DNA from: Antedon mediterranea
Lineage: Eukaryota > Echinodermata > Crinoidea > Comatulida > Antedonidae
DNA length: 64,000 nucleotides
Assembly (NCBI RefSeq): GCF_964355755.1
Contig: NC_092673.1
Span: 19,411,001-19,475,000, forward strand
Reading direction: 5' to 3'
Positions 33,218 through 62,084 of this stretch are shown in pieces. Under the pieces are notes generated by a model. That model did no database searches. It had not been told where the DNA came from and saw nothing but the letters and a program-made list of their open reading frames with translations. The position numbers and the translations under genes are program-made. How positions within the stretch are numbered: the first letter of the stretch is position 1; each line of letters starts with the position of its first letter.

Positions 33218-33255
33218 ATAACAGCGTCAATCAAGTGAAATGGCAGATTCACAAG
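33218..33255 (+). CDS. Roco exon 1: 5' UTR end and start codon
   Basis: An acceptor-like 'ttctttacag' precedes 33218. The exon has 22 nt of leader, then ATG at 33240 and five codons (MADSQ), and ends in phase 1 at 'gtaaaa'. I chose this start because it joins exon 2 in frame and gives a short, polar N-terminus. An earlier non-coding exon is implied. The following intron of 6.6 kb is the largest in the gene. Confidence 0.55.
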
Positions 33256-39200: not shown

Positions 39201-42200
39201 ATACAGAAAAAAAATGTTGATCTCATACAATAACAAGGAGTTATCCGCTTGGTATACCAAATAATGTGCAGAGTAATGTCATCAAACAACTAAATAGAGC
39301 CATTATGTTGTTAAATAAGGAAATTCAAATAGGTCCAGATATGTGTTTGTTGTACCGGTACAGCTAATCAACTAGCGAGTCAGTGTACTACACCGTACTA
39401 TAGCTGCTGGTTTGGCGCGAAATGCAAATCACGGCGTGATCCGGAATTCCTTAGTTCCGATTGCACAAATACATCAAAAAACATCTAAAATTCACGAAAT
39501 TGGACCACAGATCAAACATAAATACCATCAAGAATGTTCACAAGTGAAATAATAACGACTGGAAACATCCAAAACACCAAAAAATGTTGCATAACGCCTA
39601 TATGTTTGGATGAGTTTGAGTTCCACACATTTTTTAGGACATAATTAATAACTGTAGAATTGTTAACTGTATACATTTTAGTTTAAAAAAATACATTATT
39701 ATTATAGTATATTCAGAATGAATGATTGCTTGTACACAGTCACCCACAAGTGTTTGTAAGGCTTTGTATCACACAGAGCCTTTATATATAACCTTATACC
39801 ATTGAAACAAAAAAAAGACTTTTAATATAGTGTTTTTTATGAAAATATATAATATGTAATATTTTTGTTTTGTGCATTTTTTTAGATTTACCAAGTACTA
39901 CTGTTGAGCAATTTCAAACACAATTTCAGAAACAGACAAGTGACAAACAGAAAACAAAACTTCTTAAGCCAGAGAGTGGTAAGTTTAAGAATAAGACCTG
40001 CTGTATGTTTTATGATTGTATCTATATATAATTTAACAGAATTGTGATTAAAATGGGATTTCAGTAAAGAGAGAATTAGACGCTAGTGTTATTTAAAAAA
40101 TCATTTCTGAGCGGTACTGTAAAAAGGCGAAAAAGTGTGCAACTGATAACAAATAACAAATGGAGAGATTTTATTTATCATAAATAAAACAAACATTTGA
40201 TTGTTTCCATTTAAAATACTGTAATAATGGAATGAAGCTAGTTTGCAGATTTATGTGGCATGCTTGCTTGATTTTTGCTTGATTGTTGATTTTTAGGTTA
40301 TATGCATTATCATGCGATCACGCGATGTACGCGCGATTTAACGAAATCACGTTTGTAATCATATCTTCACAAGCATGAATCACTTTTAAACAAAATTTTA
40401 AAAATACTATAGATCGTCAGAATGCTCGGGAACACGTATTTTTTATTTCATTTTCTTGAAGTGTACAGTATGTATAATATGTATGATTTGTTATGAAATT
40501 AAGAGAACAAAAGTTGATAAAGTCATCATTAATTGCATTTAAAATTTAAAAAAATTTATTTCGACAATCAAAAAATTATGACATTTTCTTAGGCCGAAAT
40601 AACAAACTTTCTTCTTTCAAAATAAAAGTTCATATATTAAAGTTAAAACTATATAGTTTGACAGTGCATCGTTTTTAAAGATGTCATCATAGTAAAACAT
40701 TATAATTCATTGCGGTATGTAATAATCTATCTGCGCCAAAGTGGTTACTGCATAGTAAATACATGGAGGAATCTTTCTACAACTTTTAGTCAGTTGTGTA
40801 TAGCTCGGTGGTCTGTGCTCGTGTCTATGGCATTTAAGGTACCGAGATCGAGTCTCACATTGGGAAAGGAAATAAGATTTTTTTTTATTATCCATATTGT
40901 TTGTTCAATTTTATTTTTTAGTGTATATACACATAATTTATAATGAAATCTATAAAATGTAAGTAATGTCTTTATTATTATGTAACAATGTGGTTTATGA
41001 CATTATACGCAGAGGGATCTTTGATCGAATTGTGATACCAGCTATTGTATTCCTGTTAGCAAGATCCTATATATAAATAATTAAAGATTCTGAGAAAATC
41101 AATCAATCAATATATCTTTAAAAATCAATTATCTTTATTTAAATCAATGCATATAACCTATAATTCGTCATAGTGACGAATTAAATTCTAGTTTTTTTTA
41201 AACTTTATTTACTCCAGATGTTGAAAAAATCTATTAAAATCTTGATTCAATTTTCAGATATTGCTGCACGTGAATTAGATTTTCAGAAAGCATACAATGA
41301 AGCCTTGAAAGATGGATCCGTTCCAGTCAATCTTGGAATGCTTAAGGTGATTGGACAAGAAGGAGTTGGTAAAACATGCCTCATAAATGCATGTCTTGGA
41401 AAGATGTAAGTAGTTGGACAGTAAAATTGACATTACAAAATACATGTAGGTACTGCCTAATACAGTATGTATAATATGTATGATTTGTTATGAAATTAAG
41501 AGAACAAAAGTTGATAAAGTCATCATTAATTGCATTTAAAATTTAAAAAAATTTATTTCGACAATCAAAAAATTATGACATTTTCTTAGGCCGAAATAAC
41601 AAACTTTCTTCTTTCAAAATAAAAGTTCATATATTAAAGTTAAAACTATATAGTTTGACAGTGCATCGTTTTTAAAGATGTCATCATAGTAAAACATTAT
41701 AATTCATTGCGGTATGTAATAATCTATCTGCGCCAAAGTGGTTACTGCATAGTAAATACATGGAGGAATCTTTCTACAACTTTTAGTCAGTTGTGTATAG
41801 CTCGGTGGTCTGTCGAATTAAATTCTAGTTTTTTTTAAACTTTATTTACTCCAGATGTTGAAAAAATCTATTAAAATCTTGATTCAATTTTCAGATATTG
41901 CTGCACGTGAATTAGATTTTCAGAAAGCATACAATGAAGCCTTGAAAGATGGATCCGTTCCAGTCAATCTTGGAATGCTTAAGGTGATTGGACAAGAAGG
42001 AGTTGGTAAAACATGCCTCATAAATGCATGTCTTGGAAAGATGTAAGTAGTTGGACAGTAAAATTGACATTACAAAATACATGTAGGTACTGCCTAATAC
42101 AGTATGTATAATATGTATGATTTGTTATGAAATTAAGAGAACAAAAGTATAACAATAATAGATAATAGAATTAAATTTTAACATTGTTTTGTAATTTTAA

Positions 42201-45200
42201 ATGAAAGATCATTTTAATTGTTGACTAAATAACTGATTTAAAATGTGTATTTTATAAATAAAGACTATTGAAATAGTAACTACTGGTATCTATAATTAAA
42301 AAGAGAAAATTGAATTTTACAGCACTAAAAATTAATGACATTCATTGTTGGTTTCAAATTATTATATTATTATTATTATATGTATCTCAGATTTGAGGAA
42401 GAACATAAAGTTACAGATGGCATAGCAGTGATAAGGACTGTAAGCACAACATGGAAAGAGGCTAAAGCTGATAGTGGTAAACATGAATACAAATTAGCAT
42501 ATTACTCTTCCCATCATCATAGTCAATGTAACAATATTTATCTTTGATCTCATTATCATAGACACAAACAGGCCCACAATGAAACTGAGATGTAGAATGG
42601 AATTCAATAAATGCATACAACTGTAGTATGATGTCAACAGTCATATTTTCACATACATACAGCAATCGAAATTCCATTTCAGGTCCATTTTAACACACAA
42701 GCTATTGTTTGTTGATGTACTGTAATTGTAATTTTACATTAAATAATCAATCAGTTAAAGTATTGTCATCTATTAATGTATCTGCTGAAATAATACATAC
42801 AAATGTCTTTTTTCTCTACAGGTAATCCTTCAAAACAGTATACAAAAATCGTCACTGACAAATTGAGAGAAAAGAAAACTCTAAACGTATGTCAATAATA
42901 GTGTAATGAAAACATATTAAATGAATAAAGTAGCACCTACAGGACTATTGCAAATCATTCACTTAGGCTTTCTTTTTGATTCTTCAATCCTTTTAAAATT
43001 TACTCTTTTGAGAGTAAATAATATTAGTTTTCTCTTATATTTTTTATATCCATATATTGTTTTTGTTTTATGTGTCAGATTGACATGAAACCACCTGTAG
43101 ATGATGATGATGATGGTATTGTTGTTGACTACAATAACCATGACAACAATGATGGTATGTAACTTTCCCTTAAATTCTAATTATTCTTACATTTTTGTAG
43201 TAAAAGCATTAATAAATAAGTTGCAATCATCAGTTTGCAATTTCTGTCATATTAATATTGTCCCCAAAAACATTTTCTGTAGTAAAAAAAAAGAAACAAT
43301 TAAGGTTTTCAATTATAAAATAACAAAATAAATTTTTAAATTCAACCAAATACCCATTGGCTGGCAGTCAATTTGACTATTTTTTGCTTAAAATTACAGT
43401 TTTTAAGTAAATACATTTTTTTACAATCCAATTTTTGGTCAAAGTGGATAACTATTATGTGACATTAAAATGGCATTTAAAAAAAATTTTTATTTTTTCA
43501 GGGGGACAATACATCTTTAAGTTCATAGTTATTTAAAATTATAAGATTATTAGTTAGATTTTCCAATTTAATGTAACTAAGTATAAAATTATGTTATCAG
43601 ATTTATAACAATATGATGATGGTAATTTGGAGAAAACACGGCGGCGGCCATCCCACTCCTAGACATAGTCCACAGACGCTGTACATGCAGGCTTGATGGG
43701 CATGTTTCTTAGTTAGCAAAGTTAAACAAAGATGAACTAAAACACTTATTAAAACCTTAAAAGGGGCTTACAAAGATGCTTATCTTTTTGTATGAATCTA
43801 GAAGAATCAAAGTGAATTCACAGTCTACACCTACTATATAATATACATATACTAGCTTATACAAATGTGCAGATTAATAGTTTGTATATATTACTGTATC
43901 CTTTCACATCTACCGTCCCCTTTCGCTTACCGTCCCGATGCAAAAGCTCACTAATGATGATAATGAAGACAACTATACTCATAGTAATGACTTTTTAACT
44001 GACTGATTAACTATGATGATTATAGATGATTATAGGACTAAAACAATGATGCTTGTTATGCCGTTTGTGGAATGACCAATAAATTTGTTCCCACTACAGG
44101 TGCTTATACAGTTACTGAAGCTATCCCATTTGATACAGAGCAGCAATTAGATAAAGATGTTATCAAGAAAGTTGAGGAAAATAAGGAGGAGACTTTGGAA
44201 GAAACATTCAACATCTGGGACCATGGGGGACAATTAATCTACCATGGTCTACATCGGGTAAGTAGGTTTCTGTATAGAGAAACATAATTGTATGGCCAAG
44301 GTATAGTTTGATTTTTTCTTTTTTTTTTCCATTAAGTAATCGCAAACATCTTTCCATGGTACTGCATAGTAATATATATAACAATTTAATATTAAATTCT
44401 TGTCATTTGATTGGAGGATTGTGGGTCACATGATATTCAATAGATATATACTATTAAATTTTTAAGTCAGATTACACATTCTTATGTTACACAGTGAGCA
44501 ACCGAAACATGGGAGGCAAGAATAGACTGCGTGTTAAAAAATCAATCTGTATTGTCATGTCTATAATTGTTGTACTTCTCGAATAGTTTAGGCCTTGGCC
44601 TAGCCTCTTGTTAAAAGTATAACACACCTACTTTTAACAAGAGGCTAGGCCATTGAAAAAGTAGCACTCTAATTTTAGACAGGGAGTAAAACAATTAGAC
44701 ACAGCGCACACTACAGGTTAATGAAATGTGATCAGTCAACAACAGCCTCTTCACTGTGTAAAATATGCGCAAAACAAAATTGCAGTATTCGCACACATAT
44801 AACGTTGCACTCTTGATGACATCATTAGGAGAGCATTTATTTATATCATGCGACCCATAATCCTCCAATCAAATAAAAGAATATACTTAGGTGTGTTATA
44901 ATATACAAATAATGAATGTTTACGAGTGCACTGGGGCAAATAATTTCATGTGATAAAAGTAGAACATTTCATCTATCACTAATACATTTTTTTTTCATTG
45001 CATGAATATAAAATATCCATGCCTAATGTTAAAATTGGGTGTCTAGAAAACTCAGATCTAGAAAATCAATATATTATATGAGTATTATTAAAACTGATTA
45101 CTCTGTGTACATTTTCTTACTAATATTGTAACATGTAGTCAACATGTAAATCATAACGGAAATACAGTGCACGTTACCGTTAAAATGTAGGCTTAAAAAT

Positions 45201-48200
45201 TAGGTATGTATAAGTTGGTGTGGGTACGAGTTGGTTGAGGTAGGAGTTAGCCAAGTTGGGAATAGGTATGAGTTATTTTGGGTACGAGTTGACCACTTCT
45301 AGCCTAGTAGGGCCAGGCTGACCCCCTTGTGATACATTGCGATAGCGCCCACACATTGAGCCTTGAATTGAGTTTGTAATAGCTAGACTAGGCCTAAATG
45401 CTAAGCCTATATTTTAAAAGGTGTATACTGTATTTCTTTATGATTTAAGTTGTAGGCCGCTACTACAACTTACAATATTTATTATTAGTAGTAAGAAAAC
45501 GTATAATACTGTAGTATTTCAAACAAGCTACCCTCTGATTAATAATGGAACGATCCATTTGACAATCTGGGTTTTCTAGTTTCATTCTGGAACTAGAAAA
45601 CTCAGATCTTGATATGTGAGTTTTATAGATCTAGAAAAGTCAGATATCTGAGTTTTCTTGATCTTAGCTTTCTAGACACCAGTTAAGATTACAAATTTTC
45701 AGTAGCTTTTTGCCACAAATCAAAAAATGTGTGTATACGGCCAAACAGCGTTGAAACACCGGTTTATGTCAGATCACCGAAGTTAAGCAATGTTGGGCCC
45801 GGTTGCATTCACGGCGGGTGCTGTATACCAGAAAGCGATGGTGTAATGATAATATCAGACTAGCATGTAATAGGCATGGGTTCAAATCTATCGGTACCAT
45901 ACAACTGTATCCTTAGGCAAGATGCTCTCATTGCCTCGTCCTTCGGATTGGATGTAAACTCGTCTCGTGATCTGGTAGGCGCTGCACTGCTGCCTAATCC
46001 GAATTTCCTCAGTTTTCAGTTAGGCTTCAGGACAACTATTATTATAATACCTTTACCTTTTACCTTTATGAAAGTCTTTATTCATTCATTCATTCATTCA
46101 ATCTTTTATTTCGGAATCTCTGGTCCATAGAAAGTAAAAATTACATATATATGAAATAAAATAAACAAGACTAATTACTACTACTCATCTCAGGATGGCA
46201 TTCCACCTGGAGAGCATCTTCGACTTAACTAAGACGTTGCTTATAATCGTTGAGACTAAAACATTTTCGCTTGCATTTAGTCTACCCATCAGGCCATATA
46301 TTGATTTTTTTAACAATTCATAAAAAGAAGGAATTCTACATTCCGTAAACATAAGGCTGGCACTGCAATGTCGAGGCATTTGTTGCAACAATACAATTTA
46401 AAATAATGTTTGTTCATATGTTGTCAGAATATTAATCTGTCAATATTTGAATATTTTTGCAGATGTTCATAACACTACAAGCACTATACATTGTTGTGTT
46501 TGATCTCAGTAAACCATTGGATGATCTTGCTACTTTCATTGATTCTACTGGAGTAAGTATTTCTAGAGCATGGCAGCAGTAAGGCATTGTGATTGAACAA
46601 GTCTTCTAATTTATAAGAACATGCATTTTATGCATTAAAATTTTAATACCTTCCAAATAAGATGTACAGTAGTAATGAATGCTTTCAAAAACTAACCATT
46701 TCAAGTTTAACTGTGGTTAAGTGTTCTCATAATGTTTTTTTTTTTACAGGAAACGTGTAAACATCATTGGACCAATCTGCAGTTCATATTATCTTACATC
46801 CTGTCAGTTTATTCTCATAGTCGTATTGTGGAAGAAGATGAAGAGAATGAAGTTCACAAACCAACTATCCTTATTGTGGGTACACATAAGGGTAAGCTTG
46901 GTGAGACTGAAGAACAACAAAATGTTGAGGTTAATGCTTCTTTTTTTTCTACATTATTAAAGATAGCGATAACCAAAGATACGTTGCTGCTCTAAAAGTA
47001 AATTTAACAAAAATTAGAGTACATATTTATAACTTAAGCCATCACATAAAAAGTTTAAATTTAAATCTTACTTAAAATAAATTACAGAATTTACACATTC
47101 GTATATAGATGTAAATCTTTATTTACAAACAGGCAGAAAAGATGTTTAAAAAGATTCAAGATGGGCTTAAAACAAAACCCTATGGAAAACATGTGTACCA
47201 ATATTTTGCCATTGAAAACAGCCAAGAAACGACAGATAAGAGCTTTAGTGATCTCAAACAAGTTATTGATGACCTTATGAAAGCTTTAGAAAAGGAAATT
47301 CCTTTAAAGTGGATGCGTTTTCGATGTGGACTAGATGATCTAAGGAGAGAAAAACAGCCCTCTTTTTCTTTGTGTTCTTTAGAAGAGGTAAAGGTTATTT
47401 TTTATCATTCTTCAAAACATTTTAGGAAATAATATTGTATAGAATATTTATCAAGTATCTATTAAAAAGAAAGTCTAAATATAATTTTCAAAATGATCTT
47501 TATACTGGAATTTGTCATAACCATTTAAATAACAATATTCAAGATCATAATTTCATCTTTTATATATGTTGCCATTGTTTTATTTATAATTGTTACTAAA
47601 TACTGACCTAATAATTGACAAAATTCCTGATAATTGCTTAGTTTTTTTTCGTGCCACTATCGAATAACATTGTTTTTAAAACATGCACAAAAATAATAGA
47701 AAAAAGTATACTTTGTATAATTATTTATTATTACATCAATTAATATGAATTTATATATGTAACATTTATTTATATTCTCTACACTGAATTACCAAAAAGT
47801 GTTATTTACTAAAACAATTGATGCTGTTAAAGACCAAAATAATGTTGGTAATAAATACATACCTACATCTTACAAAAACTGAATAGGATTTCATTAAAAA
47901 AAATCTGATTAACACTAATTTTTAAAGCTCAAAACCCTGGCAAGTAATAATGGTATTGTTGACAAAAAACCCAAATCAGTCCTGCTTATAAACTTGCACG
48001 ATCATGGTGAAATTGTTTACATGCCTGACAACGAATTACTAAGCAATAAAGCAGTGTTAGATCCAATGAGACTGGTTGAAATTGTTACGACATTTGTAAC
48101 TGTGGTTCCCCCAAAAAAATCTGTAAGTAGACTCATGTAATGTCTTGCATTTTAAAAACGTGTTACAGTAACATAATTACTCCTGTTCTGTGCTAAATTT

Positions 48201-51200
48201 CTTGCTGTTCTATATATAAGTATGCTGGAAGACATCATTTGCAATTGACTAAAGTTTTAATTATCTTACTTTCATTGTATTATAATTGAAAAAGTGAAAA
48301 GCACAGCAACAAACTACTGTAATTTCACAACTGCATTATACACATAACATTCATATTATTTATTTATTCATATTATAAAAGTTTACTATATTTGTTGACT
48401 ATTTCCAACATCCTTCCTGCCTCCCTCTTGATTCCCTCCTGCCACTCTGTAATAACAACACAAAATATCAATTTTTTTTTAGTTCGGTATGTTTAATGAA
48501 TCTTTTGATAAGCTTGACAAAGGCATACTGGAAGAAAGGTTGTTGCGAACATTATGGAAAAAGCGTAAAATTGACGACGGAAAGAATTTTGAGTTTCTTG
48601 TAGCACTGATGATTCAATTAGGTTTCATTTGTGAGAGAAAGACAACCAGCAGCCAAGATGTGGCAAGTACATCTACAGTAGGTTTTGTTCATTTATCTTT
48701 TCTAACATGTATATTTTGTATGCAAGATTATGTAAAAAATACTTTTTTTGGGATGATACATAATTGGTGATTTTACATAACATTTCAAAATATTTGTAGA
48801 GCTATATGATATATTTTGATTAAACCTGAAGAAGTTTTTATCATGTATCATCTTTAGTTTTCATTAAAGAATTGTAAATGGCATTTTACAAATCAACAAT
48901 TTCAGGAATTGGTTGTGAAGCGATCATTCTTTGTGCCACTACGCCTTGCTTTTAAGACATCAAGTGAAGTGAAACCAGTGCCTGATGATTCACAATCTAT
49001 CAGTATCTATTACGACTTTAAGGGATATCTGCCAGATGTTTTGTTTCCATATATGATTATTGATTTCCTCAACAAATTTCAAAAGAAAGGAGTTGACCCA
49101 ATACTGTCATATAATCATGCTGAACTTGACTTCGACCAAGATCATGATGTGACTTTATCTCTTGTCAAATTCATAACTAAGGAGGATGAAAGAAAGTTCT
49201 TGTTAAAGGTACTGTATCATAAAATTTGAATTTGAATAAGTCATAATTTATTCTAAGCATAAACTCAATTAAAATATCAAAACATCATGTTTCTTCTTTT
49301 TTTAGGTGACTATTAAAAGAACTCCTGCTTGTAATGAAACAAGTAATGATGAACCCTCTTCTGAAGCATGCAAAGAGGTTTGTTCATTTCAGTTTGGAGA
49401 ACTATATATTTTTTTTATAGATGTTTTGGTTGATATTGAGGTTGTTATAATATTACATAGTTTAAAATAATTTAAACATTTAAAATAATTTTTGTGTAAT
49501 TCTTTTAGCGGTGTCATCTTAATTTGTATTTTACTTTGTAATTCTGTAGATTGGTTTAGTTTTCAATAATAAATAAGGTTTGAGGATTAAATAAGGATTA
49601 AGGTTGTAAGCTGGAGTCACACCTAAGCCCACTATTGCTAAGATCTATCATTTATAAAGTTAAAACTTTATTGATTTCATTATATATATATATAATATAA
49701 CATTGATTAGTAACAATTGATATAAAAACATCTTTAAAGTTAAATTATAAAATGATTTTAATATAATATCAATTTAAAGTACAAGAAACTTAAAGTACAG
49801 TTGTCAAAACTAGTTGTGATTGACTTTTTTAATATATAACATTAATTAATAACAAATGATTTATAAAAACGTCTTCAAAAATTCACTAGATTTGTATTTT
49901 AGATATTTATTTTATTTGTTGTTGTTTTAGTTTTCCCTTTTATTGTATTGTAAATTTTTAGTGAACACAACATTTTAAGAATTTGTGCTGCTGATTCAAA
50001 GTTGCTACATTAAGTATGTGTTTAATTGTCATATAGTGTTAATTGCAGTTTACCAATTTATATTTCTAGGTTTTGTTAACGATCCAGAAGTCATTTGAAC
50101 CTTCTAAAGATGGTGGTAGAAGAGGGATTCAATATGAGAGATGCATACTTTGTGATGTATGTAGTGATACATCAGAAAAGAAGCACATTCTAAATCTTGA
50201 AGATTTCCAGTATAGAAAGTTAAAATGCACCAAAACTGGCAAGTCTGTTACGATGGATGTTTCACGTTACAAGCGGCTATTTGTAGGTAAGAGTAATATA
50301 TATACAAGTTTATTTTCATTTATTTATTTGACCAATAACAATAAACTGAATGAACAAAATGATTATTATGTAATTTAATTAAACAAACACATACAAATTA
50401 TTATTTTTTTTTTTTATTTTTTTTTTAAAACCAGAAACAACAGCAGAAACAAATCCGCCACTTACAGCTTGGTTTAACAGATACAAAACAATTACAACAA
50501 CTCAGAAACACTTAAATTACGACGAGACAGATAAAGATTGGAATTAAAAATGTCAATATGGGGATGGGCCTGGACTAAACTATTATAATATAAACTTAAT
50601 CTACTGATGTAACCATTTTTTAGAACATTGACTCTACTAAAGGGAACACAAAGGATACTATTGTTTCTTAAATTACGGGCGGGAACACGAATACCGAAAT
50701 TGGAGATAAAGTTGCAGTCAAAAATAGAATGAAGACATTTAAAAAGAAAAATAAGATCATTGTGACATCTACGTAATGAAGGGGGAGATATAGGATATAT
50801 TTTTTTATCATCACAATTATAAAGATTGTTACATTTAAAAAGATTATTCTGATTGTGGTTGTGGCTGATGTAGCGCAAAAATCTAGAATAGAGTCGGTCA
50901 ATACGTGAGGCTTGGGTTTTGGAGATTGAATTGTAAATAACAGAACAAAAGTCTAAATTAGGTTGGATTAAGGTGATATATAGATAAACTTTGGAAGAAC
51001 GACCGAGATATTTTCCATTGCGCCACATCAGCCCAAGCAGCTTATTGCATTTATTTAGAAGATGATCAACATGAAAAGTAAATATCTTCATTCCTCTAAT
51101 ACCAGTAGTAGTACTATCATAATCATTATTGAACCTATACATTGTTACAACATGCTGCTATTAGCTGTGATATCTTATTCCTCTTACCAGTAGTAGTACT

Positions 51201-54200
51201 ATCAGAATCATTATTGATAATCCATGCATTGTTACAACATGCTGCTATTAGCTGTGATATCTTCATTCCTCTTACCAGTAGTAGTATTACTATCAGAATC
51301 ATTATTGATAATCTATACATTGTTACAACATGCTGCTATTAGCTCTGATATCTTCATTCCTCTTACCAGTAGTAGTACTATCAGAATCATTATTGATAAT
51401 CTATAAATTGTTACAACATGCTGCTATTAGCTGTGATATCTTCATTCCTCTTACCAGTAGTAGTACTATCAGAATCATTATTGATAATCTATACATTGTT
51501 ACAACATGCTGCTATTAGCTGTGATATCTTCATTCCTCTTACCAGTAGTAGTACTATCAGAATCATTATTGATAATCTATACATTGTTACAACATGCTGC
51601 TATTAGCTGTGATATCTCCATTCCTCTTACCAGTACCGTAGTTCCCCGGGTATAATCCCACCCCCCTTGTACGTGAAATTTGCCCGAATTTGGGAGGTGG
51701 GACTATACCCGGGGATTTCCCGTTGCATGAACTGAAAATGACGATATTTCTTCTAGCTACGATTTAGGCTATCTAAAAGCTATATTCCGATGTAGGCCTA
51801 GCAATTGATAATCTATACATTAGGGAGTTTTCGCAATCTTACGAATATGATAACGAAAACGGATACGTCACGCACACGTATCCGTTTTTCGTAAGCCAGT
51901 AAAAATCTGTTTCGCATGGCAACAAAATATTGAGGGCGCCGTCCAAAATATGACTGCGGTAAATTTGAGCGAAGCGCAGGTACGTGTTACTTGGTGGCCT
52001 AGGCCTAGCGTAGCATCAATGCGAGTGAGGACTTTAAAAACTGCTATTTATCAAAATTTACCTGGAATTTTAGTAAATTACTTTAGTAAATTACTTTCAA
52101 TAAAAGTATAATTATATTATAATCATGAATCATTCCTGATTCAAATGCAAAATGTGCAAAATAGATCAAAAACTATACTCGTTTTGTAGTTACGAATATG
52201 ACTGGTGATATTCATCAACACGAATATGCTTTACGAATATGAAATGGGGATCAGCTCAAAAGTTTCACAAATGTGTGACGTTTTCGTTATCGTATTCGTA
52301 CGGTTGCGAAACCTCCCTATTGTTACAACATGCTGCTATTAGGCGTCATGTCAAAATGACTATGCATGAAACGTGTATTCTTTTGTTCTTTAAACTTGAC
52401 TATGACTTCCAATTGTGAAACAACGTGAAAAACACTAATATGCACAGCTCATTATTAGTCCCGCCCCCACTGCATGCTTGACTAAATATTATTATTAATA
52501 TTAATTCTGATATTATATGTGTATATTTATCACAAATGAAAGAAAAAGCATTTTATTCAAAATACTCTTAAAGACATGCTTGATAGTTAATTTTACTTGA
52601 TTTACATTAATAGTGTGAACATTTTAATTGTTTTTGTTAGACCATATTCCATCTGCTATTATTGCTCGTGGTACAGATGTTAAGAAAGCGTACAATGAAG
52701 CCTTGAAAGAAGGTAGGGTCAATGTCAATCTTGGAATGCTTAAGGTGATTGGACAGGAAGGAGTTGGTAAAACGTGCCTCCTCAATGCATGTCTTGGGCT
52801 GAAGTAAGTAATATTTTCAAGTACAGTAAAAGGAACATTCAGTACTGTAGTTGTTTTATAGCCTTGCATATACTAATCATCTTTAATTTGTTTTTATATT
52901 GACTTTTATAATGTTATAAATTTTGCAGTACACCATGTGTGAACAGAACTGTTAATTATTGATTTCAAATTATTGTATTTACTTCAGATTTGAGGAAAAA
53001 CATATTGTTACAAATGGAATAGCAGTGACTAGGACTGTAAGCACAACATGGAAAGAGGCTGAAGCTGATAGTGGTAAACATGAATACATTTAATAGTATT
53101 ATTATACAATCATTAGACACAAACAGTCCCGAAGTGGAATGATATTGCATTTTAAAGCTCTAAAACAAGTTAGCTATAGACTCAATTCTCCTTCGTAAAA
53201 CCATGACCATTTTTGGCCACCATTGAAAAGCTAAAATAGTAAATTAAAAGACCACATTTATTTGAATAACGCGTTTATTGTTTACTGTTATTGTTTATTG
53301 TTTGGGGGAAGGGGAAGGCATAATTAAATTATTAAATTAGTCCGACTGTTAAAATGTGATGTAAGATTAAAGTAACGATTGTGAGGCATTTGATAAATAG
53401 GCAAACTGCCTTAAAATGTCTAGACATGTTTCGAGAAACTATTCTCATCATCAGAACAGAAAACAACACCTGATGATGAGAATAGTTTCTCTAAACATGT
53501 CAAGACATTTTAAGGCAGTTTGCCACAATCGTTATTTTAACTTGAAAGTTTGGCGGAATCATACATGATTTATCTAATGTAAGATTGAAAATCAATTATC
53601 AAGGTATTCACTAAATCAAACCTAAGACCTACACAAATATGTATACACTTTGTTTTTTTAATAGGTAATCCCTCACAACAGTATAAAAAAGTGGTCACTG
53701 ACAAAATGATGAGTGAAATGGAAAGTTCAGCTATAAACGTATGTCAAAACATGTTATAAAATTAATGAAGTAGTTTTACAGGACTTTTGTGCAATAATGA
53801 ATCAATGAAATGTTAATTTAATTTTCTAATGATTTAAGAATTGTATTATTATTTGGTTTGAAGAGTAAGTTTTTGACGAAAGCAGTATTCAAGGTTTGAT
53901 AAACAAATTTATTTCTTTTATTAGGAAAGTCCTAATGAATCAACTGAGAGTTTAGGTAAGTTTTTTATAATATTTATTATTAAACTGTAAATATGTATAA
54001 ATGTTTTAGAAATTTGTTTAATGGTTTCATCCTACCTCTTCCATTCATTGAAAAATGTATTGTTGTTATTAGAATTGAACACTGAAACAACTGCAAATAA
54101 TGCAGAACAAGATGATACACCAAATGAGACAGATGTGAGTACAGTACTGTCATTTAATTTATAATAATCTAGAGTAGCAAACCAATAATTAGGAGGGAAA

Positions 54201-57200
54201 ATGTTAAAAAATATGTATTTTATTTTTTGTTTTGTTTTTTGTATCAGGTTGACAAGAACTCGACTGTAGAAGGTATGTAACTTCTCTTTAAATTCTCTTC
54301 ATAAATAATAGCATTAATATACAGATACAAAAAAACTTGATTTCATCCTTCACAGAAAATTTACAAGGTCGCAGTTAAAAAATATCATCAATATTTATGA
54401 TATTAAAAAATATTAATAATTTAAGAAAATATCTTTCAGGATTGGATTTCATGCTAAGTACATCCATCAACAAGTTTGACAGAGACAAACTTATCCAGAG
54501 TAGTTCAGGTAATTTTATAATTGTTATTACATTCATACATATATTAATGGTTTTGAAATTATTACTACTATTGTCAATTTATATTTTCCCATTTATTGAA
54601 AAATACTTCCTATACTTAGGAATGAACGCTGTAACAACTGCAAATAATGCAGAACAAGGTGATACACCAATTGAGACAAAGAAAGATGTGAGTACAGTAC
54701 TGTCATTCATAATATATATATAGTAGATTTGTAGGAAGGTAGTAGTAAGTTGAAATTACCAATCATAACTTTAGAAATTATGAGCAAAATAAAAAAAGAC
54801 AGTCAAAATATTACTTATTGTACTTCATAGTTTTATTTTATTTTATGTGTCAGGTTGGCAAAAAATTTAGTGCAAAAGGTATGTAACATTTCCTCATGTA
54901 ATTTTCATTCAATAACACTTAATTAGTAGATGATGATGTAGAGTTGAATGACTGACTTTTTATGTGCAGTTCTGAGAAACAAAAATGAATAGTTCACAAA
55001 TTTGTTTGCTTATCGAAATTTGTATTGACAATTTCGTATGAATCATTTGTTTATTCAACCAACAAACAATAATGTAATATATAATAATGTCATACATTAT
55101 AGGCTCATAAGCAAAATATATTGAACAACAGAGGACATGTTATTTAATATTTTGGCCCATATTGAAGATGCATATACAGTAACTCCAGATTTTAATCAGT
55201 TTTTGTGACCAATATATTGATTTCCCTAAAAAACAATAGGCATGTTCTTTCATTTTTAAATGAAAACAAATTTGAGCCAATAACTATTGTACTATTAACA
55301 ACAAACAACAAGAATGTGAAAGAAATAATAATAAGACTACTAAAAAGAAGATGTCATGTGTTATGTGACAAAAAAACCCACTGTTTTCATTATAGGTACT
55401 AAACCTGTACGCTTTGATGCAGATCAGCCATTAGATAAAGAAGTAATTCATGATTTTGAGCAAAAGAAATTTAAAAGCTTGGAAAATACATTTAACATCT
55501 GGGATCATGGAGGACAGTTGATATACCATGGTATACATAGTGTAAGTTCAGATATTCAGCATTATAGTAGAGAGGCCAAATACACAAAAGTCCTCTATAA
55601 AAAGTTTGGGGGGCATTTTTTGTTAATAGCAGGCAACCATGTTGAATGTATCCTTTGTGGGGTGACAAAAACGATAGGGGTGGATGCCATCTTCAGTTTT
55701 GGGTTTTAAGGTCAGTTTATGTGGTCAAGAGGTCAAACAATGTCAAAATATAGGATTTTTTTTTATTCACGGAAAATCATCTACATTATCAGATCTATCC
55801 AAAAAGGTATATCTGAAGATCAACTGATGCTTCATATTATAGTAATTATGAGATAAACATTTAATTTTACACATAAAAACATAGGAAATTAAATATAAAA
55901 GTGTCATTTCTCAAAATGTTGTTTTCACATATTTCTGTAAAGTACACACAGTTTTTTAATAGGCTTTTCCCAGTCTGTTGTAAATTTGTCTTTTTCATGT
56001 TGTCCACCAGTCGTTTTGATTTTTGTCGGGAAAAAATAGGTCAAGTGTTATATGTATGAAACGCCATATGTGCCAAAAGATTGGTCTTTTACTATAATAT
56101 TAATATTACCTATATTAATTAATGTAATACAGTAATATTTAGAATTTTGTTTTTAGAAAAATTATTAATATTACCTATAATAATGTAATAATACTTAGAA
56201 ATTTGTTTTTAAAAAAATTTCGAAAACAGAGACCTAATGTCGAGATGTTTTTGTTTGGGTCAGAGACTCCCTATAATGTAACTATTTAAACATTTTTTCA
56301 TTATTTCAATGATACAAGTTTTTATTGAAGTTTGTTGTTTCAAGAAATCTCGAAAGAGAAACCTGGGTATCGAGTCTTTGCTTTCAAAAACCTAACTATT
56401 GGACTTTATCAAGGTTGGAAGGAGTGGTAATTGGGGACTTCTTTTCTTCTTGAGGCCTTCGCATCTATGCTATCATGGCTGACGGTGATAACAAATATAA
56501 AACTCCTTAAGTAATTAAGAAGTCCTTTATACACATGGATAAAGACGGTTTTAACGTTATTTAGAAACATTACGTTACGTACTGTGTCCAGGTATGAAAT
56601 CCATCTCTCCAAAAAGACATAAACGCACTTGAAGAGGACAACGTCATGCGACAAATCAAATTCCAGCTATCCATTCTTATTCATATGAAGATCGTTTAAA
56701 GTTTCTTGGTCTAACAACCCTATATGACAGACAAATTCATGGTGACTTGATTGAAAATTTTCAAAAGATTTCGAGGGTGTAGCCAAGGAAGACTTCCTTC
56801 AAATGAGATGCAATCTAAGCAGAAATACACGAGGACATCAGCTTAGACTTTTTAAACCTAAATTTCACAAAGAACTGATAGGAGATCCACTTTTTCACAA
56901 TTAGTAATTATATATTTTAATAGTTTGCCAACCAAAGTCGTCATTTCTGAAACCACCAACACATTTAAAAACCGATTGGATTCGTTGTAGAAATGAGGTT
57001 AAAAGGGTAAACAAATTTACCTATCTAAACTATCAGAACCAATATTCTAAACACTGAGTGGATGATTGATCAATTCAAAATAGAATCATTGGTATAACAA
57101 GAAACGCTGTAATTCATTGAAAGGTTCTGCATGACATGGTCAGACTGATCACGAATCACACATAATACACAATATTCTTTCGAACTGACAAATGATGACA

Positions 57201-60200: not shown

Positions 60201-61696
60201 TGGGATTACGAATATCTCGCACAATCATCTATCTTGCGCGCTATACAATCTTTGCTAGAACTACGCTTGACCTCCCATAGACAACAAGCACTGGAGTTAA
60301 ATGATAATGCAAACCCTCAAAAACACCAAAAAACAAATCAAATATGTGGTCAGTAGGCTATAGTGGTAAATATCTTCTTTAGATGTTTAAAAAAAAAAAA
60401 AATTAGGTATCCTAGGCCTACGTTTCAATCTGAATCAAATGTAGGCTAGGCCCAGGCCTTTCATTCAATCAATCTGAATGAAATGACAAGAATCTACTTA
60501 CTGTAGATGTTATATAAAAATAATTATTTTATATTCGTGCTATGGTATAATTAATCTCATTCAGTAAATAAATAAGGTCTCACTTGCTTGCTTTTTTTTA
60601 GTTTTCATAAGATTGTGGCAAATTTTAACCAACTCTTCAAGTTTAATTGCATATGTATACTTTTGCACATATATACACATGTTATACAAAATGTACATAC
60701 AAGCAAAAATATTTGAATTTATGAAAACTGCCCAGATTAATTCTCAGCTATTAACAATGATTCTCAACATTCTAATTATAATTTAGTCTATAGTATTAAC
60801 ACAATTATTATTATTGCAGATCTTCATGACCTCAGAAGCACTTTACATTGTAGTGTTCGATCTTAGTAAACCCCTTGATGATCTTGCTAAGGTCATTGAT
60901 GCTACAAGAGTAAGTATTTCAAGAACATTTAAATTGTTGTGTTTGAACAATTCATCTTGATGAGGACTTTATACTTTATATGCGTCACAAGGAGTTTAAT
61001 TGTTAAATGTAATTTCTTTCAGCTTACATAAGTTCTGTTTTAATCAATTTGAAATACCAATTTTGTGTAATTTTTTTGTTTACAGGAAGAGCGTGAACAT
61101 CATTGGACCAATCTCCAGTTCATATTATCTTACATCCAGACGGTTTATTCTCATAGTCGTATTGGGGGAGAAAACACAAAGAAGGGAGTTCAAGAACCAA
61201 CTATCCTTATTGTGGGTACACATAAGGGTAAGCTTGGTAAGACTGAAGAAGAACAAAATGTTGAGGTTAGATACTTATTTTAGTTCTACATTATTAAAAA
61301 TAGCAAGCTGTGTACATGTTGTTTTAAATAATAATGTAAACAGGCTGACTTCTGGTGTTTTACATATTCAAGTTAGATTCAAAGAGCTTAAACTGAAATT
61401 TTTTTCTTTTCATTATTTATTATAATCAGGCAAAAAAAGTATTTGAGAAGATTGAAAATACGCTTAAAGAAAAACCATATGAAGAACATGTATATCACCA
61501 ATATTTTGCCATTGAAAACAGTCGAGAAACTGCAGATAAGAGCTTCATTAAACTCAAAAAAGTTATTGACAAGCTTATGACAGATTTAAAAAAGGATGTC
61601 CCTTTAAAGTGGATGCGTTTTCGATGTGATCTACATGATCTAAGAAAGGATGACCTGAGAAGGCAAAAACCTTTTCTTTTGCATCCTTTAAAAGAG
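33218..61696 (+). CDS. Roco-family GTPase gene with two consecutive Roc-COR modules (partial 3')
   Basis: Roco proteins couple a Ras-like GTPase (Roc) to a COR dimerisation domain and act in intracellular signalling (LRRK2, MASL1). Exons: 33218-33255 (ATG 33240), 39886-39978, 41258-41405 (identical alternative 41895-42042), 42391-42476, 42822-42886, 43079-43154, 44100-44257, 46463-46552, 46750-46929, 47133-47387, 47928-48122, 48483-48677, 48906-49208, 49306-49377, 50070-50286, 52641-52803, 52988-53073, 53665-53738, 53925-53955, 54073-54134, 54248-54272, 54440-54508, 54620-54687, 54854-54878, 55396-55541, 60820-60909, 61086-61265, 61430-61696. All have AG/GT borders and matching phases, and the joined frame is open for 1145 codons. 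Module 1 covers residues 37-716; module 2 starts at 717 and lacks its COR part in this window. No LRR, kinase or Death domain was seen. Two adjacent genes remain an alternative. Confidence 0.75.
33893..33965 (+). repeat. tRNA-like SINE head or tRNA pseudogene
   Basis: 'atagctcagtgag' resembles a tRNA A box and 'gagtttgaatccgcg' a B box, about 50 bp apart, as in Pol III-promoted SINEs. The flanks do not pair as an acceptor stem, so it is not a functional tRNA. It lies in intron 1. Confidence 0.45.
34380..34724 (-). pseudogene. LINE reverse-transcriptase C-terminal fragment
   Basis: Contains FSRVILGIGNSTPSVAVRSE and GRLSL, the same as in the larger fragment at 35593-36900. It is a 5'-truncated copy of the same LINE on the minus strand, in intron 1. 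Confidence 0.7.
34725..35592. other. intron 1 spacer, no gene
   Basis: AT-rich sequence between the two LINE fragments. Nothing recognisable apart from a 'gtaggcctac' word near 35255. Confidence 0.4.
35593..36900 (-). pseudogene. LINE reverse-transcriptase remnant
   Basis: On the minus strand the open part 36176-35793 reads ILIYGSETWGF, IDHLQTRFSRFILGIGNS and MAVRSELGRLSL, the end of a non-LTR reverse transcriptase. Upstream, in broken frames, QSGFRKGFRTLDNIFIL (about 36720) and IPNGIQQGSPLPSSLFNIF (about 36450) are the earlier RT blocks. Several stops and shifts make it inactive. A 40-bp palindrome (36513-36552) sits inside. Confidence 0.75.
36513..36552. repeat. 40-bp perfect palindrome centred on TGACGTCA
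   Basis: The arms 'taaataataatatatatgac' are exactly complementary around the centre at 36532/36533. The core TGACGTCA is identical to a cAMP-response element, but its position inside a dead LINE argues against regulation. Confidence 0.9.
36901..37597. other. intron 1 spacer, no gene
   Basis: No recognisable gene. The minus-strand frame 37179-37430 has no known motif. A G-rich run 'ggtgggcggggggcggtg' lies at 36963-36980. Confidence 0.4.
37598..37666 (+). repeat. direct repeat left of Helitron-like copy C
   Basis: 'aaaaaatgttgcataacg' to 'ggacataatt' is repeated with few differences at 39579-39646, so about 2 kb containing copy C lies between direct repeats. Confidence 0.85.
37671..39251 (-). 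mobile_element. Helitron-like element, copy C
   Basis: On the minus strand it ends with the hairpin 'ctcgtcaaagtgacgag', a short spacer and 'ctag' followed by T, like copies A and D. Its start side has 'ggataactccttgttattgt', matching the 'ttgttattgtat' near the left ends of A and D. The interior shares 'ggtgaaattacgggacc' and 'gatgacgtcacaacatccgat'-like stretches with them in inverse orientation. No Rep/helicase gene; 5' limit approximate. Confidence 0.45.
39579..39646 (+). repeat. direct repeat right of Helitron-like copy C
   Basis: Second copy of 37598-37666. Confidence 0.85.
39886..39978 (+). CDS. Roco exon 2: N-terminal linker
   Basis: Preceded by 'catttttttag' and followed by 'gtaagttt'; 93 nt, phase 1 to phase 1. 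It encodes a Gln/Lys-rich polar segment (VEQFQTQFQKQTSDKQ), probably an N-terminal helix or linker before Roc. It has no counterpart before module 2. Confidence 0.65.
40465..41191 (+). repeat. Helitron-like copy B end plus embedded tRNA-type sequence
   Basis: The right end at 41156-41191 has the hairpin 'attcgtcatagtgacgaat' and 'taaattctag' followed by T, as in copies A and D. The left limit is unclear. 40801-40856 has an A-box-like 'tagctcggtgg' and a B-box-like 'gagatcgagtctc', so a tRNA-type SINE head may be included. Part of this segment (about 40570-40790) recurs inverted at 62085-62295. Confidence 0.45.
41258..41405 (+). CDS. Roco exon 3, copy 1: P-loop (G1)
   Basis: 148 nt, from 'ttttcag' to 'gtaagtag', entering in phase 1 and leaving in phase 2. 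It encodes KAYNEALKDG and the nucleotide-binding P-loop GQEGVGKT (residues 69-76). An upstream acceptor (41217) would cause an immediate stop when joined to exon 2. However, the ATG at 41218 is in frame with this exon (MLKKSIKILIQFS), so an alternative first exon is possible. Confidence 0.8.
41895..42042 (+). CDS. Roco exon 3, copy 2: identical P-loop exon
   Basis: Identical to the exon at 41258-41405, with the same acceptor and donor. Because each copy is 148 nt (not a multiple of three), including both would shift the frame. Only one copy can be used per message, or the second is a product of recent duplication or of assembly. Confidence 0.75.
42391..43154 (+). CDS. Roco exons 4-6: switch I region and variable acidic linker
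   Basis: Exon 4 (42391-42476) follows 'tgtatctcag' and encodes HKVTDGIAVIRTVSTTW; the Thr of VTDG is the likely G2 threonine. Exon 5 (42822-42886) encodes NPSKQYTKIVTDKL. Exon 6 (43079-43154) encodes a short linker with a (GAT)5 run giving DDDDD. Exon 6 corresponds to exons 21 and 24 of module 2 (similar borders, 'gtcag' then 'ttga'), but is expanded by Asp/Asn codons. Phases 2-1, 1-0 and 0-1. Confidence 0.75.
43155..44099. other. Roco intron 6
   Basis: AT-rich intron. 'gtatgtaac' donor and 'cccactacag' acceptor. No inserted element recognised. Confidence 0.5.
44100..44257 (+). CDS. Roco exon 7: G3 (switch II)
   Basis: 158 nt, phase 1 to 0. It encodes a charged helix (DKDVIKKVEENKEETLE) and the G3 motif IWDHGGQLIYHG (Trp 201 to Gln 206). 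This is the Roco-type replacement of the Ras DTAGQ motif. Confidence 0.88.
44405..44876. mobile_element. MITE-like element with 24-bp internal hairpin (intron 7)
   Basis: The inverted ends are 'atttgattggaggattgtgg' and its near-inverse ending 'cctccaatcaaat'. Inside, a perfect hairpin (44596-44619 and 44629-44652, 'tggcctagcctcttgttaaa' type) has a 9-nt loop. Related pieces lie at 59717-59760 and 61860-62050. Confidence 0.7.
44877..45732. other. Roco intron 7, spacer
   Basis: No gene. It contains repeated 'gttgggtacgagttg'-like words at 45215-45292 and repeated 'aaactcagat' words near 45048, 45596 and 45645. Confidence 0.4.
45733..46070 (+). mobile_element. SINE with 5S rRNA head and tRNA-like body
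   Basis: 45733-45832 closely follows 5S rRNA: 'gtatacggcc', 'gatcaccgaagttaagca', 'gttgggcccggtt' and 'gggtgctgtatacc', including the internal control region. Next comes a tRNA-like unit with 'gcgatggtgtaatga' (A-box-like) and 'gggttcaaatct' (B box, about 45878). Then 'ccttaggcaagatgctctca' and 'attgcctcgtcc' follow, which resemble the conserved central domain of Deu-type SINEs. The 3' end is a 'tttacctttatg' tail. It is not a functional 5S gene, because the 3' third is deleted and replaced. Confidence 0.8.
46077..46395 (-). pseudogene. LINE reverse-transcriptase end with (tgaa)n tail
   Basis: On the minus strand a frame with PRHCSASLMF, IPSFYELLKKSIYGLMGRL and SENVLVSTI reads like the C-terminus of a non-LTR RT. 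The 3' end is 'aataaaagattgaatgaatg', a short tandem tail typical of CR1/L2-like LINEs. Confidence 0.6.
46463..46929 (+). CDS. Roco exons 8-9: core of Roc and G4
   Basis: Exon 8 (46463-46552) follows 'atttttgcag' and encodes ALYIVVFDLSKPLDDLA, a Roc core strand and loop. Exon 9 (46750-46929) encodes HHWTNLQFILSYI, a Glu-rich loop, and ILIVGTHKGKLG. The last is the G4 region, where THKG (289-292) has Gly instead of the expected Asp of T/NKxD. Both exons are in phase 0. Confidence 0.88.
47133..47387 (+). CDS. Roco exon 10: end of Roc, start of COR
   Basis: 255 nt, phase 0. QYFAIEN in the probable G5 region is followed by a helix and IPLKWMRFRCGLDDL, the typical start of COR-A (module 2: VPLKWMRFRCDL). 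It ends with a Leu/Glu-rich segment at 'gaggtaaagg'. Confidence 0.85.
47928..48122 (+). CDS. Roco exon 11: COR-A
   Basis: 195 nt, phase 0. It contains NLHDHGEIVYMPDNELL and DPMRLVEIVTTFVTVV, matching the COR pattern of 'LHxxGxIxY...L...V..DPxWL...'. The acceptor is 'tttttaaag'. Confidence 0.85.
48483..48677 (+). CDS. Roco exon 12: COR-A winged-helix part
   Basis: 195 nt, phase 0. FDKLDKGILEERLLRTLW and FEFLVALMIQLGFICER match the 'xGxLxxxxLxxLW...LLxLMxxFxLC' pattern of COR. Confidence 0.85.
48906..49377 (+). CDS. Roco exons 13-14: COR-B
   Basis: Exon 13 (48906-49208) begins with FFVPLRLAF, followed by YDFKGYLPDVLFPYMIIDFL, the 'F..G.LP..LF..LI' signature of COR-B. Exon 14 (49306-49377) is a short, hydrophilic continuation. 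Both are in phase 0. Confidence 0.85.
50070..50286 (+). CDS. Roco exon 15: end of module 1, Cys-rich
   Basis: 217 nt, phase 0 to 1, ending 'tttgtag' then 'gtaagag'. It encodes CILCDVC and a later Cys, a probable small metal-binding or disulfide element at the end of COR-B, then SRYKRLFVG. The phase-1 donor fits exon 16 (52641) without a stop. If unspliced, the frame runs into the intron for about 30 codons and stops at 50376, which would be an alternative end. Confidence 0.8.
50404..51142 (-). pseudogene. 5'-truncated LINE fragment with poly(A) tail (intron 15)
   Basis: The minus-strand frame 51142-50492 reads HVDHLLNKCNKLLGLMWRNG, LYITLIQPNLDFCSVIYNS and SRIDRLYSRFLRYI, the thumb and C-terminus of a non-LTR RT. 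A T-rich stretch at 50404-50428 is its poly(A) tail seen from the other strand. It is truncated at the 5' side where the minisatellite begins. Confidence 0.8.
51080..51635. repeat. 88-bp minisatellite, about 6 copies
   Basis: The unit starts 'tgttacaacatgctgctatt', followed by 'gtgatatcttcattcctctt' and 'gtagtactatcagaatcatt'. Starts at 51143, 51230, 51321, 51409, 51497 and 51585. Its first unit overlaps the truncated LINE end. One more partial unit lies at 52320-52350, separated by two insertions. Confidence 0.92.
51636..51803. mobile_element. small inverted-repeat insertion in the minisatellite
   Basis: 'ccgtagttccccgggtataa' with 'tcccacc', then an inverse 'ggtgggactatacccgggga' about 50 bp later. 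It replaces part of a minisatellite unit. No family recognised. Confidence 0.45.
51821..52319. mobile_element. MITE-like TIR element in the minisatellite
   Basis: The left end 'tagggagttttcgcaa' and right end 'ttgcgaaacctcccta' are inverted; matches continue through 'acgaatatgataacgaaaac'. It is 499 bp long. An internal hairpin lies near 51857-51889 ('aacggatacgt' and 'acgtatccgtt'). The target duplication is unclear. Confidence 0.75.
52641..52803 (+). CDS. Roco exon 16: P-loop of module 2
   Basis: 163 nt, phase 1 to 2, like exon 3 but five codons longer at its start. It encodes KKAYNEALKEG and a second GQEGVGKT P-loop (residues 754-761). It follows exon 15 in phase. Confidence 0.8.
52988..53738 (+). 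CDS. Roco exons 17-18: switch I region of module 2
   Basis: Exon 17 (52988-53073, 86 nt as exon 4) encodes HIVTNGIAVTRTVSTTW. Exon 18 (53665-53738) encodes NPSQQYKKVVTDKM. Same phases as exons 4-5. A large palindrome (53400-53524) lies in the intron between. Confidence 0.8.
53400..53524. repeat. 55-bp-arm inverted repeat (intron 17)
   Basis: Arms 53400-53454 and 53470-53524 are near-exact inverses ('ggcaaactgccttaaaatgt' ... 'gcagtttgcc') with a 15-nt loop. 'catgtttcgagaaac' and 'ctcatcatcag' within resemble the motif at 30115-30165. Confidence 0.9.
53925..54878 (+). CDS. Roco exons 19-24: expanded variable linker of module 2
   Basis: Six small exons of 31, 62, 25, 69, 68 and 25 nt. Exons 20-21 (NTETTANNAEQDDTPNETD, VDKNSTVE) and 23-24 (AVTTANNAEQGDTPIETKKD, VGKKFSAK) are copies of one two-exon cassette; exon 22 (LDFMLSTSINKFDRDKL) is single. 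Phases are consistent, and module 1 has only exon 6 at this place. The linker is polar and likely disordered, inserted between switch I and G3. Such small exons are the least certain calls; 21 and 24 rest mainly on similarity to each other and to exon 6. Confidence 0.6.
55396..55541 (+). CDS. Roco exon 25: G3 of module 2
   Basis: 146 nt, phase 1 to 0. It encodes DQPLDKEVIHDFEQKK and IWDHGGQLIYHG (Trp 953 to Gln 958), matching exon 7. The donor 'agtgtaagttc' lies only about 20 bp from the left end of the E3 element. Confidence 0.85.
56540..56995 (+). pseudogene. LINE reverse-transcriptase C-terminal remnant
   Basis: In broken frames on the plus strand: YEDRLKFLGLTTLYDRQIHG, DLIENFQKIS, then NTRGHQLRLFKPKFHKEL and PTKVVISETTNTFKNRLDSL. 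These match the conserved end of many CR1/L2/Rex-like RTs. There are stops and at least one shift. Confidence 0.75.
57370..58040 (+). pseudogene. remnant of a transposon-associated protein (FHAxTGC type)
   Basis: Near 57878-57960 the plus strand reads FHAITGCSTSSLFAGYGKRS then WKSFVTHPL. This is the motif of a widespread, uncharacterised protein family of invertebrate transposons that usually reads FHAxTGCDTTS. Upstream pieces are in several frames. The Asp of TGCD is lost. It is cut by the LINE insertion at 58040-58690 and continues at 58780-59010. Confidence 0.5.
58040..58690 (+). mobile_element. 5'-truncated LINE copy with (att)n tail
   Basis: The open frame to 58362 contains HAYNTRINHYF, CRINCGQFRISFSGAVIWND and LPLELQ, the C-terminus of a non-LTR RT. 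A 300-bp 3' UTR follows and ends 'tacaataaagaagattatta'. It is a different LINE type from the one at 7.7-12.7 kb. Confidence 0.8.
58780..59010 (+). pseudogene. C-terminal remnant of the FHAxTGC-type protein, Cys-rich domain
   Basis: One frame reads RLEAPNPVVSLELVTCACKL, then KACICGCDSIVC: a decayed Cys-rich (tesmin/CXC-like) domain. In related proteins such a domain follows the FHAxTGC part. Frame breaks and a missing Cys spacing show it is inactive. Confidence 0.45.
59011..60819. other. rest of Roco intron 25
   Basis: 59290-59694 is the right part of E3 and contains repeated 'gaccttgaaaatgacctt' words (59381 and 59544). A MITE-like piece ('tcatttgattggacaattgtg') lies at about 59717-59760, related to the element at 44405-44876. 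From 59800 to 60819 no gene or repeat was recognised. Confidence 0.45.
60820..61265 (+). CDS. Roco exons 26-27: core of Roc and G4, module 2
   Basis: Exon 26 (60820-60909, 90 nt) encodes ALYIVVFDLSKPLDDLA. Exon 27 (61086-61265, 180 nt) encodes HHWTNLQFILSYI and ILIVGTHKGKLG (THKG at 1041-1044). Lengths and phases equal those of exons 8-9. The G4 Gly substitution is present here too. Confidence 0.88.
61430..61696 (+). CDS. Roco exon 28: end of Roc and start of COR, module 2
   Basis: 267 nt, phase 0. QYFAIENSRETADKSF and VPLKWMRFRCDLHDL correspond to exon 10. It ends 'aaagaggtaac'. The next expected exon (COR, NLHDHGEIVY-like) was not found in the remaining 2.3 kb, so the gene continues beyond the window or is truncated. 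Confidence 0.85.
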
Positions 61697-62050: not shown

Positions 62051-62084
62051 ACATAAATACAAATGAATAAAGTTGAAAGAAGAT

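Follow-up and report, generated by a model that had tools for sequence, protein, structure and literature searches.

The window (the whole 64,000-nucleotide stretch of DNA that was analysed, C4 positions 19411001-19475000) lies inside an array of Roco genes on C4, one of the 18 contigs of a genome of 354 Mb. On the basis of stop-to-stop frames, of splice sites and of the homology between two Roc-COR modules, we rebuilt on its plus strand a gene model of 28 exons (15 + 13) that runs from an ATG at 33240 to position 61696, comprises 1145.0 codons with no stops, and has introns that are all GT-AG and all consistent in phase. The model reproduced the 28 exons, canonical borders, consistent phases and 1145-codon open frame of the original prediction, as well as the phase-1 exit of exon 15 and the phase-1 entry of exon 16. 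Module 1 corresponds to exons 3 to 15, and module 2 begins with exon 16 at 52641.

The coding part of exon 1 (33240-33255), an exon that begins after an AG ending at 33219, consists of ATGGCAGATTCACAAG, encodes MADSQ and exits in phase 1. Exon 2 (39886-39978, phase 1 to 1), named E2, encodes DLPSTTVEQFQ... and is typical of the single-module genes of the array. The P-loop of module 1 (GQEGVGKT) is encoded by exon 3 (41895-42042, phase 1 to 2) and is followed by the switch I region, linker and G3 sequence WDHGGQ in exons 4 to 7 (42391-42476, 42822-42886, 43079-43154 and 44100-44257), the remaining Roc, the G4 position (THKG) and the start of COR in exons 8 to 10 (46463-46552, 46750-46929 and 47133-47387), COR in exons 11 to 14 (47928-48122, 48483-48677, 48906-49208 and 49306-49377), and the 'YERC' post-COR exon, exon 15 (50070-50286), which exits in phase 1 at GTAAGA. 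Module 2 includes its P-loop exon (exon 16, 52641-52803, GQEGVGKT, phase 1 to 2), exons 17 to 25 with the switch I region, duplicated linker exons and G3 (52988-53073, 53665-53738, 53925-53955, 54073-54134, 54248-54272, 54440-54508, 54620-54687, 54854-54878 and 55396-55541), and exons 26 to 28 with the remaining Roc, the G4 position (THKG) and the start of COR (60820-60909, 61086-61265 and 61430-61696). All of these exons lie on the plus strand. The next intron (61697-64000) runs out of the window, and the gene goes on in the adjoining sequence.

The P-loop exon of module 1 is doubled: a copy at 41257-41404 is identical in 148/148 bases to that at 41894-42041, and because each is 148 nt long they are not both usable in frame, which makes the duplicate unusable together with exon 3. 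Nested tandem duplications with offsets of 997 and 637 bases occupy 40464-42181 and have doubled this exon with no base change in it. Self-comparison also revealed two long tandem arrays in the first half of the window, at 27051-28343 and 759-1948, with offsets of about 88-90 and 60 bases, respectively.

The next 10 kb of the chromosome (locus L001) completes the frame, giving 38 exons and 1694 residues that end in a stop. In the numbering of the window, and again on the plus strand, this sequence includes the remaining COR and post-COR exons of module 2 (64619-64804, 65137-65337, 65621-65923, 66071-66148 and 67191-67404), three small phase-1 tail exons (68778-68813, 69252-69296 and 70819-70845), a DED-like exon (71567-72106) and the last exon, with the stop (72264-72283). 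The rest of the second COR, which the original prediction had proposed to look for beyond 64000, is present at 64619-65923. The tail is lysine/arginine-rich and leads to the DED-like domain, whose exon scores 18.5 bits in Pfam, under the cut-off of 35.9; the C-terminal exon of a paralogue, of another subtype, passes the Pfam DED cut-off with 38.1 bits. At least 150 genome matches to the DED exon were found and, since all of the best 150 of 326 candidates matched, the genome must be very rich in exons of the death-effector-like kind.

Roc (PF08477) was recognised in both modules (E 6.7e-15 in module 1 and 1.8e-14 in module 2), with COR-A (PF16095) C-terminal to it in both (E 2.4e-10 in module 1 and 1e-9 in the continued module 2), in all cases above the Pfam cut-off. 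Neither of the modules nor the C-terminal exon matched LRRs, kinase, ankyrin repeats or death domain in Pfam, the weak DED match apart. Nine modules were compared (a1, a3, b1, b2, c1, c2, e1, e2 and that of gene 3), where e denotes the window. Each includes ten homologous exons in the same order, 574-608 codons with no stop, and because these exons recur in order in nine stop-free modules the observation of two modules in the window is not a matter of chance. The presumed second half of COR, the part expected to form the dimer interface, corresponds to an exon about 101 codons long that is conserved in 9/9 modules and that gave no Pfam match. The motifs G1 (G.EGVGKT) and G3 ([WY]DHGGQ) are likewise found in all nine. 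The usual G4 motif is THxD, the Asp of which is expected for guanine recognition; at this position all nine modules read GTHKGKL (in the window, for example, within 46750-46929), and the replacement of Asp by Gly places ordinary GTP specificity in doubt. The original prediction had listed P-loop, G3 and G4 for both modules: the first two (GQEGVGKT and WDHGGQ) are there, while the third reads THKG and not THxD. In the available portions of the published descriptions the family is defined by Roc plus COR, and for this reason the window gene was retained as a Roco member despite THKG. The best solved chains in a PDB sequence search were 4wnr, 6hlu, 3dpu and 8r4b, which we take to be archaeal or bacterial Roco proteins, and then LRRK2 Roc chains.

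The post-COR exon has 57 matches in the genome (60/60 candidates scored), 39 of them on C4 between 15.9 and 19.7 Mb. There are at least 84 matches to COR-A exons (best 150 of 188 candidates), at least 121 to the P-loop exon (best 150 of 171) and at least 146 to the C-terminal COR exon (best 150 of 158). The single-module units examined in the array consist of an N-terminal exon set, one Roc-COR module, a post-COR exon, tail exons and a DED-like exon; the window gene has one start set and one end set around two modules. We infer that it belongs to a small two-module subfamily in a large array whose Roco genes mostly have a single module.

The array includes genes with at least four types of N-terminus: MADSQ, E2 with an N exon, kinase and DED. 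Counting C4 only (of 26 matches to E2, one on C9 and a weak one with E 1.95 were dropped), 20 of the 24 E2 exons have within 10 kb upstream, at 2.1-7.4 kb, an exon encoding DGNTPVSLLES..., which we had taken to be ankyrin-like and about which Pfam disagreed. No match to this usual partner of E2 was detected in the window. An N-terminal protein kinase exon is present in two paralogues, L009 (7276-8016; Pfam 3.9e-39) and L015 (5180-6202; 89% identical); that of L009 appears to be linked to the Roc-COR module via a second kinase exon, in phase 0. Their kinase-first, death-fold-last layout presumably resembles that of DAPK1. Gene 3 has an N-terminal DED-like exon that scores 27.4 bits, under the 35.9 cut-off. 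A distant Roc-COR type (X-type) lies just upstream of several array units (L016 1-3943, L020 and L021), with a P-loop exon 35-43% identical to that of module 2; in L016 the X-type module is followed by two DED-like exons, the second of which ends in a stop. The locus L002, at 17.69 Mb, shares 98.98% identity with module 1 in a stretch of 786 bases that surrounds the post-COR exon and has its own three tail exons and DED-like exon, and the upstream neighbour L014 has two tail exons and a DED-like exon.

A DNA search, in which a missing match is no proof of rarity, gave five genome matches to the MADSQ start exon, each a short way upstream of a Roco unit. Loci a, b, c and e have identical copies of ATGGCAGATTCACAAG and of the GTAA after it, and these four loci contain the five junctions (two at locus a) at which a post-COR exon of the array is followed in the same direction, at less than 3 kb (1.0-2.4 kb), by a P-loop exon; the fifth MADSQ locus, d, has a truncated remnant. 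The five were found among 39 post-COR exons, two of which are followed by no P-loop exon in the same direction, and the gap next in size measures 11.9 kb, with the qualification that the P-loop exons come from the best 150 of 171 candidates, such that some may be missed and some gaps overstated. A recognised N-terminal exon precedes none of the five short-gap P-loop exons, as compared to 27/34 of the others within 12 kb (Fisher p 0.0014). Since a short gap leaves less room, a fairer comparison is restricted to 2.5 kb, the distance available in the short gaps, and gives 22/34 versus 0/5 (p 0.011). Three of the junctions (two at locus a and one at locus b) are near-identical copies (97.5-100%) and hence not independent; with such junctions counted once the figures become 0/3 versus 22/34 (p 0.059). 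The comparison of starts omits the duplicate of exon 3 as well as seven P-loop exons that are X-type or weak matches (35-66% identity), all of which the gap count includes. Seven of the 34 other P-loop units are also without a recognised N-terminus, and as kinase and N-DED starts were scored only at the examined flanks these seven may conceal more.

Within the gap between the two modules (50286-52641) we detected no tail exon, no DED-like exon and none of the kinds of N-terminal exon known elsewhere (MADSQ, E2, N exon, kinase and N-DED). The gap includes a dispersed element in antisense (50403-51081), an insert relative to L002 that is judged LINE-like from its poly-T and minus-strand ORF, an 88-bp minisatellite (51082-51642) in the intron after exon 15, and a MITE-like element with terminal inverted repeats (51817-52323), then a minisatellite remnant (52319-52342). 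It has four AATAAA/ATTAAA motifs, 1.7 per kb as compared to 2.8 per kb in the stretch of the modules themselves. One gene is the better reading of this region because L002 possesses the tail and DED exons that are missing from the gap, while module 2 has the full set, and because the five short gaps stand apart from the rest, are without recognised starts and lie in MADSQ loci. We consider it moderately probable, judging from the DNA sequence, that the window contains the 5' two-thirds of one Roco gene encoding a single two-module chain.

Two adjacent tandem genes, an unlikely arrangement, would require gene 1 to end after exon 15 by intron read-through, by early polyadenylation or through a LINE-derived exon (50435-50547), and gene 2 to start at an unrecognised exon in the gap or at the Met before KVIGQEG inside the P-loop exon. 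The AG at 50433-50434, together with the poly-T, is a plausible acceptor for this exon of 37 codons, which is in frame and ends in a stop; as an ordinary gene end it was rejected, and it was kept only as part of this rival, since its peptide has 106 genome matches (E up to 1), many of them identical at full length, and hence represents the end of a dispersed element. AATAAA occurs at 50340 and 52099, and the seven of 34 units mentioned above indicate that unseen starts exist. With loose thresholds, 18 right-phase ATG-to-donor candidates were found in the gap, but they sit in the LINE-like insert, the minisatellite, the MITE-like element or short stretches. Against two genes are also the lack of any known N-terminal, tail or DED-like exon detected in the gap and the restriction of such short gaps, among 39 post-COR exons, to MADSQ-type loci. 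A candidate short terminal exon (DVQDDRELLQSVNILK, stop), at which gene 1 could end, lies in the gap of loci a, b and d. Its perfect conservation was rejected as proof of an exon, 17/97 windows of the same gap being equally identical.

The original prediction had explained the two modules by an internal duplication of exons 3-15. The tree of the nine modules speaks against this origin: the second modules e2 and c2 are sisters (ultrafast bootstrap 99, FastTree 1.000), and module 2 does not group with module 1. A local copy of module 1 as the source of module 2 is not supported by this tree and was rejected, and module 1 also carries E2. The first modules a1 and b1 are sisters (76; FastTree 0.931 for protein and 0.990 for DNA), as are the second modules a3 and b2 (94; 0.983 for protein and 1.000 for DNA); deeper nodes are weak (41-60). 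Since first and second modules form sister pairs, the two-module pairs were probably copied as units. The dS values are 0.18-0.20 for the a/b pairs and 0.36 for e2/c2.

From about 34664 the window matches the L002 unit, with 93.9% identity over 3046 bases, 95.7% over 509 bases and about 99% further down, and at the other MADSQ loci a, b and c there was no good match to E2 (best E 0.005). We infer, as the simplest account, a replacement of the first module by an E2-type module: an E2-type single-module gene would have donated the present module 1, which would have displaced the original module 1 of an older two-module gene of the MADSQ type; of the two breaks, one would lie between about 33512 and 34459 and the second within or close to the minisatellite. 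Blocks of this kind could be exchanged without a break in the frame, because in the modelled genes they are mostly bounded by phase-1 introns. Of the 12 compared loci that possess a post-COR exon, 7 carry the 88-bp minisatellite behind it and L004-L008 do not; in the intron after the post-COR exon of module 2 it occupies L001 3424-4615. It may be a site where the genes of the array recombine. Loci with this minisatellite besides the window are L001, L002, L003, L010, L011, L013 and L014.

In another reading, recombination in a fast-changing array put two modules behind one start and left a young or decaying chimera whose product is unmade or functionless, two-module loci being elements that come and go. 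The identity of module 1 to its E2-type relative, 99% near exon 15 and 94-96% upstream, is in keeping with it, as are the duplicated exon 3, the two mobile-element-like inserts in the window and the sister loci, where the second module is truncated, incomplete or has a damaged splice site. Locus a contains a partial module flanked by two complete ones; an intact three-module gene was rejected there, as E12-E16 were undetected in the middle module. At locus c, one Roc exon of c2 is preceded by AA and not by AG, and c2 has an omega of 0.65-0.69, with upper ends of the CI at 1.01-1.07, so this locus may be decaying. At locus d a second P-loop exon is truncated behind the post-COR exon, and a like P-loop exon with the same upstream flank is found 11.9 kb on, beyond a tail and DED exon; the second module of this locus has apparently been lost or displaced. 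At loci a and c, the 6 kb that follow the last module revealed no DED-like exon. In the window, however, both modules are intact over 33 exons, and the branch omega is below 1 for e1 (0.44, 95% CI 0.29-0.72) as well as e2 (0.43-0.51, CI 0.30-0.79), values averaged over a time that includes that before the present joining. For b1, b2 and c1 it is 0.46, 0.45 and 0.36, respectively; the estimates cover e1, e2, b1, b2, c1 and c2, and leave aside a1, a3 and gene 3. The apparent copying of two-module pairs as units argues in the same direction, and we regard a chimera without function as quite improbable. Two-module genes appear to persist, but turn over. An assembly artefact, in which different gene copies of this repeat-rich array were misjoined, would be favoured by the dense near-identical copies and the minisatellite at the junction but is highly improbable, as loci b and c have junctions of the same layout with different sequence, the window contains no N, and the two modules, at about 0.39 synonymous substitutions per site, have diverged too far to be repeated copies of a single one.

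The reading as one gene with two Roc-COR units, put forward in the original prediction, thus gains from comparative anatomy (one start set, one end set and similar junctions at sister loci) and from dN/dS below 1 in both modules; a single mRNA is predicted. Two Roc-COR modules in one chain would represent a new Roco variant, and such a gene is probable. COR-mediated Roco dimers are reported in the accessible parts of PMC6337361 and PMC4104024, and by analogy an internal dimer formed by the two modules of one chain is plausible. The two covalently linked units would pair through their COR parts, the nucleotide state would control this intramolecular pseudo-dimer, and the state of the pseudo-dimer would in turn set the exposure of the C-terminal DED-like domain, which when exposed could recruit death-fold partners, in the manner of a switch for innate immunity or cell death. 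With a DED-like domain behind the tail, the output would probably consist of death-fold signalling. We propose tentatively, and with considerable doubt, a Roco subfamily whose chains each tether two diverged Roc-COR modules into a built-in heterodimer and have a death-effector-like domain as output, a nucleotide-controlled switch that needs no partner, kept by en bloc copying while the array swaps modules and N-termini like cassettes. Whether Roco proteins function as dimers, and whether dimerisation drives GTP hydrolysis, is still argued in what is accessible of PMC6337361 and PMC4104024; a natural single-chain pair, if true, would allow dimerisation to be tested by changing each half separately. 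With its death-fold-linked GTPase genes and several kinds of N-terminus, the array resembles a repertoire of immune receptors that belong neither to the NLR nor to the TLR family.

The window gene shares with the Roco family (LRRK1/2, MFHAS1/MASL1, DAPK1 and bacterial Roco) the order Roc then COR-A in each module, and differs from it in having two complete Roc-COR modules in one frame and THKG at the G4 position; unlike the LRRK, MFHAS1 and DAPK1 subfamilies it has no recognised LRR or kinase. The original statement that known animal Roco proteins carry one unit agrees, within the scope of the literature alone, with the titles and abstract starts listed, among which no Roco protein with two Roc-COR units was found; the nearest published case encountered is the Trichoplax combination of a Ras-like domain with Roc-COR (PMC4104024); the word 'two' in the accessible text of PMC6337361 refers to the protomers of a dimer and not to two Roc-COR units. 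The TIR/Roco proteins of Aplysia, as far as the accessible text of PMC9334734 describes them, are similar in joining Roc-COR to immune signalling domains in an invertebrate, with no mention there of a two-module protein. The ROCO genes of brown algae, according to the part of PMC11378527 available, are also expanded, exon-shuffled and proposed as immune receptors, but the shuffled exons are LRR exons before one Roc-COR, whereas in the array described here whole modules and N-terminal sets differ. In Trichoplax, as the accessible portion of PMC4104024 reports, an animal Roco expansion, with CARD, death or Ras-like domains, is likewise joined to death-fold domains, and at least three of its Roco proteins have a Ras-like domain before Roc and hence two G domains per chain; the extra G domain of those proteins is Ras-like, while the window gene repeats the whole Roc-COR-post-COR unit.
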